64,000 nt of DNA from positions 1,304,819 through 1,368,818 of the forward strand of contig OX638318.1 in assembly GCA_951812585.1 (NCBI GenBank). The letters are read 5' to 3'. The translations under genes and the position numbers were made by a program. Source of the stretch: Rhodothermales bacterium (GTDB lineage Bacteria; Bacteroidota; Rhodothermia; Rhodothermales; Bin80). Positions 10,280 to 17,214 of this stretch are shown here, piece by piece; positions within the stretch are counted from its first letter, which is position 1; each line of letters opens with the position of its first letter. The notes beneath the pieces are model-generated. The model was not told the origin of the DNA. It was given only the letters and a program-made list of their open reading frames with translations, and did no database searches.

Positions 10280-11095
10280 AGTGGTCTGTAGAGCATGCGC
10301 GCTAGTGGATGATGCCTCTCTTTGCTGAAGCCAGATAGGACTTGATAATGATTTCAACGGGGCCGAAGAACTGGCTTACTTGCCGGCTAAGGTGGCGGAC
10401 GCCTCGTTGGCCCCAGTCGGAAAGGATACGGCATCCATGAGCAACCAGCCTGGCGCGAGAGCGTGCCCTGGTGCCAGTGGTCATCGCGTGGGCCCTAGCG
10501 CCACTTGTAGGCGGCCTGACACGTACGCCGCCGGCGCTAGTTGCAGCACGATAGTACCAAAGTTAGTATCCGCCCCCGTATAGCCAACCTCAAACGCACG
10601 AAGGGAGCCTATTACTGCCCAATCCCAGAGACAAGGGTCATTGGTCACCACCACTGGATGCTGACGCTACACAGGCTCTCATCAACCTGCCGCGACGCCG
10701 ATCGAAGCATCGCATCCGGGGTGTCGCTCCGCTCCGCATCGGTGCCACCCGAGCAGCGCCGACAGCTGGACACAGACGTGCGCAACTTCAAGTGGCCACA
10801 TGGGACTATGCGGACTCCCCATCTGCACGCTATTGCGTGCGACAGGTGCGCAGTGACCCCCGACGTGTCATGCACAACACCGCACGGCCACGAGGCATCG
10901 TATTCTCTTCGGAATCGAGCCTCCGTGAACCAGGTCGTCCGCCGTTTGGCGGTGCTGTGGATAAGCCCTGGCGGTCTACTGGCTGCCTGCCCCCGACTCG
11001 CCGTCCAACCCCTCTCATTGGAACTGTCAGTGATACTGCCAGTTAAATGCTGTCCAACCGCACGCGGCGGCGAAGGAGCCATCGAGGAGGCAGCC
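10280..11095. other. Long region without recognisable gene
   Basis: About 816 bp. The frame of the following propeller gene is open back to 10541, but the translation up to 11095 has no domain, is rich in Arg, Ser and Pro, and precedes a good ribosome binding site, so it is treated as non-coding. On the minus strand a short frame ends near 10302 without any known domain. The stretch may be debris from the rearrangement that truncated the sulfatase. Confidence 0.5.
11084..11090 (+). promoter_or_regulatory. Ribosome binding site GAGGAGG deciding the propeller start
   Basis: GAGGAGG 5 bp before ATG 11096. The surrounding 11 bases (11080-11090) recur exactly at 12580-12590 in front of another ATG, suggesting a duplicated or shared leader. 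Confidence 0.6.
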
Positions 11096-12403
11096 ATGCA
11101 AGTGACCCCACGCATCACAAGCCGAACCGAACCCGACCGACCACTTCGTCTCCGCGCGCGCTTCCACGCCCTACTGCTAGCAGCGACCACCGCCCTCCTC
11201 CACGCCTGCGGAACCGATGCAGGCTACTTCGACGCCAGCCCCAGCACCATCGTCGAAACCTTCGGCGATACCACGCTGGTCCGTACCCTGTCCGGAAGCG
11301 TCTGGGGCGCTGAGGCCTCACTTGTGCCCGAAGTCTCGATCGGCGAGCTCGAAGGGCCCGAGGAGTACCTCTTCGGCAGAATCAGGTCGATCGCGGTGAA
11401 CGATGATGGGACCGTGTACGTCCTGGACCAGCAGGCGCAGCATGTCCGCGTCTTTGACTCGCTCGGGATCTATCTCGAAACGCTAGGTCGACGCGGCAAG
11501 GCCCCAGGCGAGTTCAGCCGCGCCGAGGCCATCGCCTTGCTACCAGACGGACGTCTGATTGTGCGCGATCCCGGCAACCAGCGCGTCATGGTATTCGGTC
11601 AAAAACCTGAAGAAATGACCGAATGGAGATACAATGCCAGCGTGTATACGTCAAAACCTCTATACACCGATATGCACGGTCGGACTTTTCTGCTCGCGGG
11701 CGACCCTTCTCGCGAGGCTGATCTCGTCATGCACATCATCGTACTGGACCCGGACGGAATGCATCTCGACACCCTTCCAGAACCTGCGAACGACTACGTA
11801 CCCCTCTTCGTGAAGGCCGAGGCTTCCGGGATGTCAGTGAGCTACGGCGTCCCCTTCACTCCCCGTTTTCTCTGGACCATTCACTCGAGCGGCCAGTTCC
11901 TCACCGGTCTCTCCAATGACTACCGGATCGACCTCGCTCGCGACAACGGCTTACTCCGGATTGAGCGCAACTACAATCCGGTCCGGGCGTCGGATGCTGA
12001 GCGCTCCTTCCAGCGAGAACGCACCGTCGGAAACATACGCCGGTCACTGCCGGACTGGGATTGGGATGGCCCGACGATCCCAAGCCGCAAGCCGTTCTTC
12101 CAGGAGTTGTTGGCCGGACGAGACGGACGCATATGGGTGCGGCTGTCGGCCGAGGGGCGCCCGGTGGACAATGAGGACTACGATCCCGACGACCCCAGTT
12201 CGTTTCCGGAGACCTGGGAAGAAGAGACCCGGTACGATGTCTTCGAGCCGGATGGGACCTACCTGGGCGTCGTAGTAGCGCCGGATGGATTCTCCCGTTT
12301 TCCGGCCCCAGTATTCGCCAGGGATTATGTGTGGGCCGTAGCCGTAGACGGGCAGGGGGTGGAACGGGTGGTGCGCTACCGGATCCATCTCGGGCGCCCA
12401 TAA
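11096..12403 (+). CDS. 6-bladed beta-propeller lipoprotein
   Basis: A 435-residue exported protein. The ATG at 11096 follows GAGGAGG (11084-11090) by 5 bp, an excellent ribosome binding site. The N-terminus is Arg-rich, then a hydrophobic stretch ends in LLHAC (Cys 38), a plausible lipobox. The mature part has NHL/6-bladed propeller repeats, for example RIRSIAVNDDGTVYVLDQQ, HVRVFDSLGIYLETLGRRG, and AIALLPDGRLIVRDPGNQR. These proteins are thought to be surface binding scaffolds; no enzyme function can be assigned. Codon use and leader sequence differ from flanking genes and resemble propeller families of other phyla, so lateral transfer is possible. It stands alone with several hundred bases of non-coding DNA on both sides. 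Confidence 0.75.
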   Translation: MQVTPRITSRTEPDRPLRLRARFHALLLAATTALLHACGTDAGYFDASPSTIVETFGDTTLVRTLSGSVWGAEASLVPEVSIGELEGPEEYLFGRIRSIAVNDDGTVYVLDQQAQHVRVFDSLGIYLETLGRRGKAPGEFSRAEAIALLPDGRLIVRDPGNQRVMVFGQKPEEMTEWRYNASVYTSKPLYTDMHGRTFLLAGDPSREADLVMHIIVLDPDGMHLDTLPEPANDYVPLFVKAEASGMSVSYGVPFTPRFLWTIHSSGQFLTGLSNDYRIDLARDNGLLRIERNYNPVRASDAERSFQRERTVGNIRRSLPDWDWDGPTIPSRKPFFQELLAGRDGRIWVRLSAEGRPVDNEDYDPDDPSSFPETWEEETRYDVFEPDGTYLGVVVAPDGFSRFPAPVFARDYVWAVAVDGQGVERVVRYRIHLGRP

Positions 12404-13212: not shown

Positions 13213-14152
13213 ATGCACCCCTCTGTGTCCCCCACCGTGTCCTCAGCAGCGCCGAAGTCCATCAGTGCAGGTCGGGCCGCCCGGCAGCTGCAAGCCCAGT
13301 CGCTCAGCGCCAACACGCTGCGCGCCTATTCCCGCACCCTTGGCCGCTTCCGCAGCTGGCTGGATGGCCGCGAGCCTACGGACACCTCGTTGTCAGACTA
13401 CCTGGCGCACCTCCACGCCGCAGGCAAAGCGCCGTCTACCATCGCACAGGTACGCAGCGCTGTGCGATATGCGGATCGCAAGGCAGACACCACGGTTGCC
13501 GGCCCCCAGTCGGAAACCACACTCGCAGGCATCCGCAGGGAAGGCCGCTCGCGTGGCCGCGGCCAGGCCACCGGCCTCACATGGTCGCGCACGGATGCCA
13601 TACAAGTGCTCCTGCGCCCCCGCTCCCTGCAAGCGCTCCGAGACGCCGCACTGATTGCGGTTATGTCGGACGCCATGCTGCACGCGTCTGAAGCTGTAGC
13701 CGTCCAGGTGCAAGGCATTACCACCGAGGCGGACGGAACGGGACGCCTCGCCGTGCACCAGTCCAAGACCGACCAGAAAGGCACCGGAGCTGTGCTCTAT
13801 CTCGGTGCGCCCACCCTGCAGCGCGTGCAGGCCTGGCTTACCCGCGCAGGCATTGAGTCCGGCCCCGTGTTCCGGTCCGTCCGCAAAGCTGGCAGCGTTA
13901 CCGGTAGTGCGCTCACCACGCGCAGCGTATCGCGCATCATCAAGCGCATAGCCGAACCACTGGGTATCACCGGACGCGTTAGCTCACACTCGTTCCGGGT
14001 GGGCTCTGCACAGTCGCTCGTTGAACGCGGCGCCACGCTCACGGAGACACAACTCGCAGGCCGCTGGAAGTCGGCACGGATGCCCGCCCCATTATGCGCG
14101 CGGCCAACTCGCAGGACGCGGCGCAGTGGCCCGGCTGCGCTACGCAGCGTAA
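13213..14152 (+). pseudogene. Tyrosine recombinase/integrase, frameshifted and with a mutated catalytic Arg
   Basis: A site-specific recombinase with an N-terminal SAM-like core-binding domain (about 20-110, SANTLRAYSRTLGRFRSWL) and a catalytic domain (about 125-310). The catalytic Lys (about 185), HSFR box (259-262) and RW block are present. Two lesions are visible. The first catalytic Arg, expected in a LLR-x-SE block, reads MLHASE because codon 13681-13683 is CAC rather than CGC. A C run at 14083-14090 (CCCGCCCC) has one extra base; removing it restores PAHYARGQLAGRG with the nucleophilic Tyr and a natural stop TAA at 14150-14152. Without that repair the frame runs on to 14316 with unrelated sequence. 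The gene is therefore almost certainly dead. Confidence 0.85.
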
Positions 14153-14964
14153 ATCCACGCCAGGATGCCATACCCGCACTGTGCCGCCGCTGTGCGCTGT
14201 GCATGGAGCCAGCAGTCTATGCCCCACCCGGCCCACGACTCCCCGGGCATAATGCCGCCATACGGCAGTGTCTTCGCAATCCAATGACTATCAGAAACTC
14301 CAGCGCCATGCGGTAGGCCGGCGCACTGGCCACGCCCGCCTTTCGCAGTGCAGGACGGTCAATCAGCGGTCCCTTTCGCTTCCAGGCAGCAGGTGCACAG
14401 TGACGCGCATCCAACCATCGCGCCGGCCTTCGCGGGGAATAACAACTGGCGTTACGATGCGCAAGGCACCTCCGCCTCAGGGCCTCCGAAGGGAATCCGC
14501 GCCTCATCGCTTTCCAGCGCACGGAAGGCTTGCGCAGTCGAGGCCAATGCTTGTGCGGTCGGTAGTGCCTTGCCCCTCGCCGTACAGCCACGGTAGCATA
14601 GCGGGCAGCGCGCCCCGCAAATGTACGAGCACATTCAGGACGCGCTCAATGGACAGACGCTGGACCATCGGGTGCTCCGCTTCGGGGCGGACGTGTGGCC
14701 AAGGGCAGCAGAAGAGGCTGTGTCGCAGGGTGTGTTCTGATTGGCGTTTACATACAGTTTCCTATAGCAGTCATGCCACACGAAAATGTGCGAACAGTGT
14801 ACAACACAGTGCGGATACGCTTTGATTTGATGCTGCAGGTACCCCAGCCGCACGCCCCGAAATTCCGAATAGCACTTGACTTAAGAGTTGCTGATCTTTT
14901 GTATACTATTCCGACGTGTGGTGTGAACGGACATGCTGGCAACAAACTCTTAAGGAGGTCTATC
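14153..14964. other. Region without convincing gene between integrase remnant and peptide cassette
   Basis: About 810 bp. Several open frames exist on both strands but none has a domain or a ribosome binding site. One short frame at 14622-14741 (starts MYEHIQDALNG, 39 residues) reads like the tail of a natural protein and could be a remnant. The last 90 bp probably hold the promoter and leader of the cassette at 14965. Confidence 0.45.
14876..14907 (+). promoter_or_regulatory. Candidate promoter of the cysteine-rich peptide cassette
   Basis: TTGACT at 14876-14881 and TATACT at 14902-14907, separated by 20 bp, which is longer than the usual 17. The local sequence is much richer in A+T than its surroundings, and the region lies 58 bp upstream of the presumed start, so a promoter here is likely even if the exact boxes are uncertain. 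Confidence 0.4.
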
Positions 14965-15282
14965 ACGAAAGGCAGGCTCAGTTACTTCTCGGTGCGGTTT
15001 CTCCTAATGACCACGGTTGCTTTCGTGGGGTATGCAGGGGCCACGATGTTCAACTCGATTACGAGCTCTCCGGCGGAGGCGGTCCCCGGTTGTGAGGAGA
15101 ATATTTGCGAAAAGTTTCCAAGGAAAGATGGCAACTATATCATTGGCTTGTGTTTACCCTATGACCCTGCTGTGCCCCCCGCGCCTGTTGGCTGCAAAGC
15201 CAAATGGGTGACACAAGACGGCGTAAGATATCTCGACTGCGATAATTACGATTGTGACGATGGGGATGGGGAGGAGGAATAA
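14965..15282 (+). CDS. Exported six-cysteine acidic peptide, apparent ACG start
   Basis: A small exported protein, 105 residues if it starts at ACG 14965. AAGGAGG (14952-14958) sits 6 bp before this ACG, which is ideal spacing, and no ATG, GTG or TTG is in place; the next ATG (15007) would remove the positive N-terminus. From ACG the protein has KGRLSYFSVR, a hydrophobic stretch to about residue 26, and an AEA site near 37-39. The mature part has six Cys (43, 48, 63, 77, 92, 97) and an acidic tail (DCDDGDGEEE). The layout recalls NVEALA-type small exported proteins of Bacteroidota, which also stand next to 6-bladed propeller genes. It overlaps the downstream propeller gene by 29 bp. Function unknown; disulfide bonding is likely. 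Confidence 0.6.
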   Translation, partial: TKGRLSYFSVRFLLMTTVAFVGYAGATMFNSITSSPAEAVPGCEENICEKFPRKDGNYIIGLCLPYDPAVPPAPVGCKAKWVTQDGVRYLDCDNYDCDDGDGEEE

Positions 15283-16459
15283 TGCTGAAGCTGCAGCTTC
15301 TCTGCGGCAACTCGTATACGGCGCGGGTTGTTTGGCTGTCAGTCTTATTTTCGCGTCCTGCCAAGGCGACCGGGAATCCGTTGTACTTCACCCTACGGAG
15401 GAAAACGTCCCGGTAATCACTGACCCACGGTTTGTTCTGTACGAGCCTGAGTCTGACACGGGAGTGGCAGTGCCATGGCGGTTGGACTTCGGCAATCTTC
15501 AGGGCCGTACTATTGGGTTTAATGAAGGATCATCTCGCGAGATGATCGGCATGGTGCGAGATCTGGATATTGACTCAGAGGCTGTCTACTACACAGATTA
15601 TGAGTACCATGAGGCGCGCGTCTACGACCTGCACGGCACTTTGAAAGCGATTCTCGGCAAAGAGGGAGTCGGTCCGGGAGAAATGCTTTACCCCAGTGCG
15701 GTTGCGGCTACTGCTACTGATGAGGGGCAAGTACTTGTATTTGTAGGTGCTGGACGACGGGTTCATGTGTTCAGGCAACAGGACTCCACCTATGTGCCAG
15801 CGAGCTCCTTTCTTGTGGCGGCTTCTCTTAGAAGAGGCGGCGATCTTTGTGTGATGCATGGACACGTATACACAATCGGGCTATCAGACGAGTTAGATGG
15901 GATTATCCACAAATATACTCTTGTGGGAGAGTACGTTATGTCCTTTGGGACAGCGTACCAATCCCCCAGTGATTTTGTGCGGCATTTGCTAGCTCCACGA
16001 GGTGTTCTGGAGTGCAATAAGATGCACCGCGTAATCGGTTATGTGCACCCTAATATTCCGGTGCTTACTGGGTACTCGGAGACCGGTACTGTACTCTGGC
16101 GCGTTAAGTTTGGGGACCTGAAGATAACGCCTGAAGAAGAGCACCGTGTGGCAGGTAGAGCACGTAGACTGGCAACCCGGGCTTGGAGGCGAGGAGAAGC
16201 CAGGATGATTCAGCTGCTTGCAGGAGGGACGGACACTTTTACTGTTACATATCTTACCGAAGGAAGTACGGGGAGACGTCATTTCTTCACGGTAGACGTG
16301 GTATCGGGACTAGGTGCATATCTGGGCGGGTATGTCCCATATGATGGCATTGCTTTTTACCCAACGGTGCTTGCGGTGGATTCAACGTACGTGTACACGG
16401 TGAAGCATAACCCGTATCCTCAAATCGGAATTTACCGACGCCAGGATACTCTCCCGTGA
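15254..16459 (+). CDS. 6-bladed beta-propeller lipoprotein
   Basis: A 401-residue lipoprotein with the lipobox LIFASC near residue 36, so presumably anchored in the envelope. The mature part is a 6-bladed propeller of the type found beside small exported peptides in Bacteroidota (blocks such as MVRDLDIDSEAVYYTDYEY, ARVYDLHGTLKAILGKEG, GPGEMLYPSAVAAT). Start ATG at 15254 or at 15260; both lie inside the end of the peptide gene, and GAGGAGG inside this overlap leads to an out-of-frame ATG at 15282, so the true start rests on the lipobox frame. It ends with a GTGA overlap into the next gene, showing a tightly coupled three-gene operon. No catalytic residues are recognisable. Confidence 0.75.
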   Translation: MTMGMGRRNNAEAAASLRQLVYGAGCLAVSLIFASCQGDRESVVLHPTEENVPVITDPRFVLYEPESDTGVAVPWRLDFGNLQGRTIGFNEGSSREMIGMVRDLDIDSEAVYYTDYEYHEARVYDLHGTLKAILGKEGVGPGEMLYPSAVAATATDEGQVLVFVGAGRRVHVFRQQDSTYVPASSFLVAASLRRGGDLCVMHGHVYTIGLSDELDGIIHKYTLVGEYVMSFGTAYQSPSDFVRHLLAPRGVLECNKMHRVIGYVHPNIPVLTGYSETGTVLWRVKFGDLKITPEEEHRVAGRARRLATRAWRRGEARMIQLLAGGTDTFTVTYLTEGSTGRRHFFTVDVVSGLGAYLGGYVPYDGIAFYPTVLAVDSTYVYTVKHNPYPQIGIYRRQDTLP

Positions 16460-17214
16460 ACAACGTTGCGACAATTCTCCACCGTTATGCGTGGTTCCTG
16501 GCTGCAGCCTTCGTTTTTGCGGTGTTGTTCGTCTCAGGCATAGCCGGCCTTCTGCCGACTCCAACGATAGAGCTCCGCTGGTCTGATAGTTTCGCCGCGG
16601 TTTCAGACCGGTACGTACCTTCCTATACCAGTCGACAGGGTCGGGAAATCGTGATGGTGTACATTGGCTCCTCAGCGTGTGATTTTGCCAATCTACCCGA
16701 GGTACCTGAACTTGTTGAGCGCACGAAGCTTGCATTGCAACAGCAGGCGGTCGCTAAAGGATTCGGGTTTTCGGTAATCGGCCTGTCTGTTGATTGGGAC
16801 ACAGACAACGGACTCCAACACCTTTCCCAATTTGGCCGCTTTGACGAGATCCTAACGGGGAGAAAGTGGCAAGGCATGGGCCCTCGCCTGCTGGGTTTAC
16901 CGGAATTGGCGGCTACGCCGCAAGTGCTCGTAATCATACGTTCGTCAGAGAGCCCTTCGATGGGGCAGTCCAATCAGGTGTTTGGGGGAAATGTGGTTGT
17001 CCGCAAGGCTGGATTCTCACAGATTGCGGCTTGGTTGGAAAGGGGAGTCCCCCTTCCCGCAGATCTGTTGAAAGACTTGCCTCTTTCCTGCGCGCACTGC
17101 AATTACTTCCCGCTGGACGGGGGCGACACAGGCTACCACTCGAATCAGGCCCTGACCGGCTTGGCCGTGCGGAGAGGCGCTGGAGTGAACATTCGCGCAC
17201 CTGCTGCGGGGTAA
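16456..17214 (+). CDS. Membrane-anchored thioredoxin-like protein with CxxC motif
   Basis: A 252-residue protein starting at GTG 16456, overlapping the propeller stop by four bases. One membrane helix (about 13-33) anchors it, with the bulk outside the cytoplasm. The core (about 60-200) reads like a thioredoxin-type fold: IVMVYIGSSACDFANL at the position of the active-site strand (only one Cys, 75), FGFSVIGLSVD, and TPQVLVIIR with the cis-Pro position. A CAHC pair (212, 215) lies near the C-terminus. In a cassette with a six-cysteine exported peptide, a role in its thiol/disulfide state is an attractive inference, not proven. The last 70 bp overlap a convergent small gene, so the C-terminus may have been altered. 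Confidence 0.6.
   Translation: MNNVATILHRYAWFLAAAFVFAVLFVSGIAGLLPTPTIELRWSDSFAAVSDRYVPSYTSRQGREIVMVYIGSSACDFANLPEVPELVERTKLALQQQAVAKGFGFSVIGLSVDWDTDNGLQHLSQFGRFDEILTGRKWQGMGPRLLGLPELAATPQVLVIIRSSESPSMGQSNQVFGGNVVVRKAGFSQIAAWLERGVPLPADLLKDLPLSCAHCNYFPLDGGDTGYHSNQALTGLAVRRGAGVNIRAPAAG

Follow-up and report, generated by a model that had tools for sequence, protein, structure and literature searches.

A multi-copy three-gene module of Rhodothermia encoding a predicted exported six-cysteine peptide, a propeller lipoprotein and a thioredoxin-like protein

The window (the whole 64,000-nucleotide stretch of DNA analysed here, from contig OX638318.1 of a Rhodothermales bacterium) carries three ORFs on the same strand, which code for a peptide with six cysteines, a propeller lipoprotein, and a membrane-anchored thioredoxin-like (TRX) protein. 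The ORF coordinates confirm this set of genes, which had been recognized in the first-pass annotation. The features of the locus are as follows.

14962–15282, + strand: six-cysteine peptide gene; stop codon TAA at 15280; start placed by homology
15254–16459, + strand: gene for a propeller lipoprotein (6-bladed, NHL type) with the lipobox IFASC; may alternatively start at 15260 or 15266
16456–17214, + strand: gene for the membrane-anchored TRX protein; CxxA active site (CDFA)
14952–14959, + strand: Shine-Dalgarno-like AAGGAGGT, assigned from the sequence, preceding the peptide ORF
14962–15084, + strand: predicted peptide leader, basic at the start and then hydrophobic, with probable signal-peptidase cleavage after ...SPAEA
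15085–15279, + strand: mature peptide with six cysteines (C-x4-C ... C ... C ... C-x4-C); its last residues overlap the propeller start region
16678–16680, + strand: codon for Cys75, the single conserved active-site cysteine of the TRX protein, invariant in alignment A1
17089–17100, + strand: CAHC in the C-terminal extension of the TRX protein; window copy only, in a low-confidence part of the model

The propeller and TRX genes overlap by 4 bp, as previously described. The 29 bp overlap given for the peptide and propeller genes holds if the propeller starts at its GTG codon, and becomes 23 or 17 bp when counted from in-frame ATG codons. The start of the peptide gene had initially been set at 14876, where there is no start codon and which is upstream of the coding part; homology places the start at 14962. 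In the homologue alignment, the codon ATC at this position, right after AAGGAGGT, aligns with the ATG that is found in most homologues. ATC is a rare start codon in NCBI translation table 11, and the window peptide may use it as such or, equally, may have undergone a start-loss mutation. L087 (ATA) and L093, at least, likewise have no ATG at the aligned peptide start. More generally, the peptide genes of L087, L089, L093, and the window have ATC, ATA, or ACA at the aligned start, or a frameshift in the leader, next to open propeller and TRX frames. In such genes the start may be weak or may have been lost, or the assembly may be in error. Scanning the locus for sigma-70-type promoters and terminators gave values no better than those of shuffled sequences.

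The window peptide has no convincing match in Pfam, NCBIfam, or PDB sequences; a PDB sequence match to a ribosomal protein was dismissed as a chance hit. Its cysteines are conserved across homologues, which were checked for loss of this feature: in 29 aligned peptides, four cysteines are invariant and two are present in at least 90% of the sequences. The cysteines are arranged as C-x4-C ... C ... C ... C-x4-C, the first pair typically reading CExDxC, and some peptides have an extra pair, often CGxC. Leaders of the 29 homologues comprise 30–47 aa and cores 36–67 aa. The mean net charge of the cores is −5.2, with negative values in 26 of 29. The acidic tail reported for the window peptide is not conserved; its GEEE coincides with a purine-rich stretch ahead of the propeller frame. 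The acidic and variable core points to a ligand for recognition or signalling, not to a membrane-lytic toxin.

ORFs with the cysteine pattern and a hydrophobic leader are strongly enriched before propellers, where they make up 38 of 179 ORFs just upstream of propeller genes against 9 of 4861 elsewhere (odds ratio 145, Fisher p = 1e-48). A different Cys-rich exported peptide is encoded directly before another propeller at L030 (2641–4043, on the minus strand of that locus as oriented), and no TRX gene of the cassette family is present.

The propeller of the window was modelled with AlphaFold (pLDDT 80). Comparison of the model with NHL propellers gave Z scores of 20–24, the closest being the Brat NHL domain (1q7f; Z = 23.8, rmsd 3.3 Å over 265 residues), so that the earlier assignment as a 6-bladed propeller is upheld and can be specified as NHL type. 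PF17170 (DUF5128) is matched by 10 of 13 propeller homologues (best E = 2.4e-12), while the window protein itself is below the Pfam cut-offs. A simple pattern search found a lipobox in about two thirds of the propeller-family ORFs (18 of 28). Another 6-bladed propeller (PF17170, E = 7e-8; NHL) is encoded at 10541–12403, about 2.5 kb upstream; its ORF may begin too early.

Methylamine dehydrogenase combines a propeller with a small Cys-rich subunit and depends on an anchored thioredoxin-like maturation protein of MauD type. The cassette has the same ingredients, and its peptide could accordingly be imagined as the subunit of a propeller enzyme. We consider this very improbable: the cores lack the conserved Trp pair from which the TTQ cofactor is derived (16 of 29 have no Trp at all), the best folds for the propeller are 6-bladed NHL domains, and no MauE-like gene was recognized adjoining the cassettes.

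By sequence, the window TRX protein likewise has no convincing match in Pfam, NCBIfam, or PDB sequences (a PDB match to an integrin is a chance hit), and none of the 19 TRX family members scanned matches a Pfam thioredoxin profile. A stand-alone relative, which aligns with the TRX family at E = 3e-15, has PF13905 at E = 6e-6, just under the cut-off. In the structure model, an N-terminal helix precedes a thioredoxin fold. Its best Foldseek match is DsbE (3gl3, E = 8e-6), and comparison with tryparedoxin gave Z = 9.2 (rmsd 3.5, 130 residues aligned). The nearest folds are DsbE/TlpA/ResA and tryparedoxin, and the model gives a TlpA/DsbE-like thioredoxin fold. A single cysteine at the usual active-site strand had been noted before; this is Cys75, which follows the first strand of the domain and is invariant in 19 aligned sequences. 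Pro155 in the cis-Pro region is also invariant (alignment A1). The CAHC near the end, to which attention had also been drawn, is part of a C-terminal extension found in the window copy alone and is not conserved.

The window TRX protein lacks a CxxC redox centre (CDFA), and most cassette copies have CxxS or CxxA. The resolving cysteine has been lost in about 43 of 51 cassette TRX proteins, CxxC being kept in eight; these eight are mostly beside peptides with 7–8 rather than six cysteines (L025, L073, L077, L079, L123). In contrast, six of seven stand-alone relatives have CxxC (Fisher p = 0.0005 against the cassette copies, with kinship ignored). The TRX tree requires 3–5 changes of the active-site state. 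This loss of the resolving cysteine in cassette TRX proteins, compared to CxxC in most stand-alone relatives, is a new observation. In a further explanation, the peptide would sense redox state or metal, the anchored TRX protein would keep its thiols reduced, and the propeller would read the state of the peptide. The cysteines and acidic residues of CExDxC could bind metal, and Foldseek also ranks the Sco and ResA families of reductants and metallochaperones for the TRX model. However, a lone cysteine without CxxC is a poor reductant, and no recurring metal-handling gene was recognized in the flanks, so that we regard sensing as rather unlikely.

Within the family, 14 of 16 genomes encode the TRX protein, and within the order 31 of 114 do; it also occurs in seven genomes of a neighbouring family of the same class (f18) and in one Acidobacteria MAG. 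The other named TRX relatives are from Rhodothermales or Bacteroidota MAGs. A propeller gene is directly upstream in 55 of the 67 TRX genes or remnants examined. The other 12 consist of two at contig ends, two decayed fragments, one with the propeller downstream (L158), and seven stand-alone genes. The flanks differ between cassette sites. The three genes had been proposed to form a functional unit, and homologues were inspected for genes that regularly occur apart; instead, the gene order is held across Rhodothermia, together with the cysteines. As a module, the trio belongs to Rhodothermia (both Rhodothermales and the neighbouring family), where genomes carry several diverged copies each.

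In the Acidobacteria MAG (SCN 69-37; L098, 3727–8547), genes for a propeller, a CxxS TRX protein, and a MacB/FtsX-type permease follow each other. No six-cysteine peptide was found upstream, but the ORF that follows the permease encodes a product whose terminal tail has four cysteines.

Four loci (L121, L128, L129, L131) have two peptides and two propellers together with one TRX protein, which suggests that peptides and propellers are paired. Strict 1:1 counting fails at other loci, where one propeller is accompanied by two (L119, L157) or three peptides (L159). Distance matrices of the three genes are correlated (rho 0.64 for propeller and TRX, 0.54 for peptide and TRX, 0.48 for peptide and propeller; all p = 0.001 or less), which indicates that the three genes are duplicated together and diverge together. 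When the peptide core alone is compared with the propeller, the correlation is not significant (rho 0.19, p = 0.13).

The single-contig 3.2-Mb source genome has nine clear propeller paralogues, with TRX sequences at seven further sites in the same places. The TRX gene is intact at three of about ten sites (the window, near 0.268 Mb, and near 2.41 Mb); the remaining cassette sites are truncated, frameshifted, or missing parts. A tyrosine recombinase (PF00589) has three genomic copies (window 13213–14316; G000:C1:2851520–2852002; G000:C1:1431353–1432252). Two of them are 0.5–0.7 kb upstream of a cassette peptide, one of these being a fragment with a stop codon; this is a hint of mobility. The cassette might be a decaying selfish element or a relic without current function in the source genome, as would fit the few intact TRX genes, the missing ATG of the window peptide, and the position of the integrase copies. 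On the other hand, none of the three window ORFs is interrupted and the cysteines are conserved, the propeller and TRX genes in close pairs have dN/dS values of 0.16–0.53, and the module persists across Rhodothermia. We thus consider a relic to be quite unlikely. Given the many decayed copies and the peptide genes without ATG, the window copy may nevertheless be poorly expressed.

One orthologous peptide pair has a dN/dS of 1.15 (propeller 0.33, TRX 0.19), and another has 0.14. Diversification of the peptide is suggested, not shown, by these values. Such a ratio, along with paralogues that are multi-copy, diverging, and decaying, is what might be expected if the peptide were a disulfide-rich bacteriocin or contact toxin and the propeller its immunity or receptor protein. 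The fulvocin C-related profile NF033852 gives a weak hint in the same direction, with one homologue reaching E = 0.11 (13.4 bits against a cut-off of 35). Assignment to fulvocin-type bacteriocins was rejected with this score below the cut-off, and NF033852 is absent from the source genome at E = 1e-5. Moreover, the prevailing acidity of the cores argues against a toxin, no conserved dedicated exporter occurs in the cassette flanks, and there is no match to the anti-phage defence profiles of PADLOC. The pair with dN/dS 1.15 includes copies with damaged starts or leaders, for which relaxed selection could be the explanation. We therefore judge a toxin to be improbable.

Among known systems, the NVEALA loci of Bacteroidales (PF14055) are similar in that they encode a 6-bladed propeller lipoprotein next to a short exported peptide, whose leader is hydrophobic and ends near Ala and whose core often bears Cys; tandem copies occur there as well. 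A TRX-like protein is encoded adjacent to such genes (L164) or inside an array (L147). The cassette peptide differs in having six regularly spaced cysteines, where NVEALA peptides have a few irregular ones, and in lacking the NVEALA motif. It is not an NVEALA member: PF14055 does not match the window peptide at E values up to 10, hhalign gave a probability of 17.6% over 13 leader columns, and the profile has no match in the source genome or in the order members sampled. The literature searched yielded no paper naming NVEALA.

A thiol protein beside such peptides had been called unusual, which does not hold in view of loci in two Bacteroidales genomes. L164 has genes for a TRX-like protein, an NVEALA peptide, and a propeller adjacent to each other in that order, and the NVEALA/propeller array of L147 includes an S26 signal peptidase as well as a TRX-like lipoprotein; no such peptidase was noticed beside the Rhodothermales cassettes. 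Homology of the Bacteroidales TRX-like lipoprotein to the cassette TRX protein found no support by hhalign. The two trios may thus have assembled independently. The array of L147 (2881–17653) is interrupted by an IS21-like transposase pair, and the last ~40 residues of its TRX-like lipoprotein recur with 86–97% identity at five other sites of that genome. As far as the libraries searched show, the module is unnamed; its architecture is known but functionally unexplained.

A similar combination is found in SOQ1 of plant chloroplasts, a membrane protein whose thioredoxin-like domain and NHL propeller act together in the lumen. The NHL part has a binding role (PMC10173003). The window TRX model resembles the solved SOQ1 thioredoxin domain (Z = 8.2), and the propellers match by sequence at E = 0.003. 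While SOQ1 is one chain, the cassette consists of separate genes, has a dedicated Cys-rich peptide, and shows a CxxA/S active site. The periplasmic thioredoxins TlpA, DsbE, and ResA share the fold and the N-terminal anchor with the cassette TRX proteins, differing by CxxC from their predominant CxxS/A. With respect to the active site, TMX5 and ERp44 (both CRFS) are closer: they have a thioredoxin fold and a single active-site cysteine, Ser or Ala replacing the resolving one, and TMX5 is also membrane anchored. TMX5 binds its clients in mixed disulfides (PMC11443168). Both are eukaryotic ER proteins with many clients, and the likeness to the cassette TRX protein is one of mechanism, close kinship not being claimed. 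A thioredoxin fold with CxxS is what characterizes natural trapping proteins, TMX5 among them.

The earlier proposal that the thiol protein acts on the peptide finds support as an inference, with a change in its nature: as the resolving cysteine has been lost, the TRX protein may trap or escort the peptide instead of acting as a classical oxidase. In the mechanism that we propose, the peptide would be exported by Sec and would be captured in the periplasm by the lone cysteine of the TRX protein as a mixed disulfide. As a natural trapping-type thiol protein, TRX would then escort the peptide or steer its disulfide pairing. The propeller lipoprotein would bind its cognate peptide and may deliver, display, or sense it. 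Against this mechanism, we count the eight cassette copies with CxxC, the unequal numbers of peptides and propellers at some loci, the non-significant correlation between core and propeller, and the many decayed copies. The locus belongs to a conserved three-gene module that exists in multiple copies. On balance, we see an even chance that this module serves to produce and handle a small disulfide-rich peptide for export, TRX being its trap or escort and the propeller its cognate partner.

Pairs of a short exported peptide and a 6-bladed propeller are a recurring theme in Bacteroidota, in the form of NVEALA and of the six-cysteine family. The module is compact and combines a peptide with a conserved cysteine scaffold, a protein that likely handles it covalently, and another that is likely its partner, which makes the arrangement testable in one complex. 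More tentatively, the secreted six-cysteine peptides of Rhodothermia could form a family not described so far that serves in signalling or recognition. Each peptide would have a propeller of its own and a dedicated thioredoxin for disulfide trapping, the latter having arisen several times as the resolving cysteine was lost; this would be a bacterial counterpart of the thiol-mediated retention or quality control of secreted peptides. If trapping by the TRX protein proves true, the module would show that in bacteria, too, a secreted ligand can have its own CxxS-type thiol trap.
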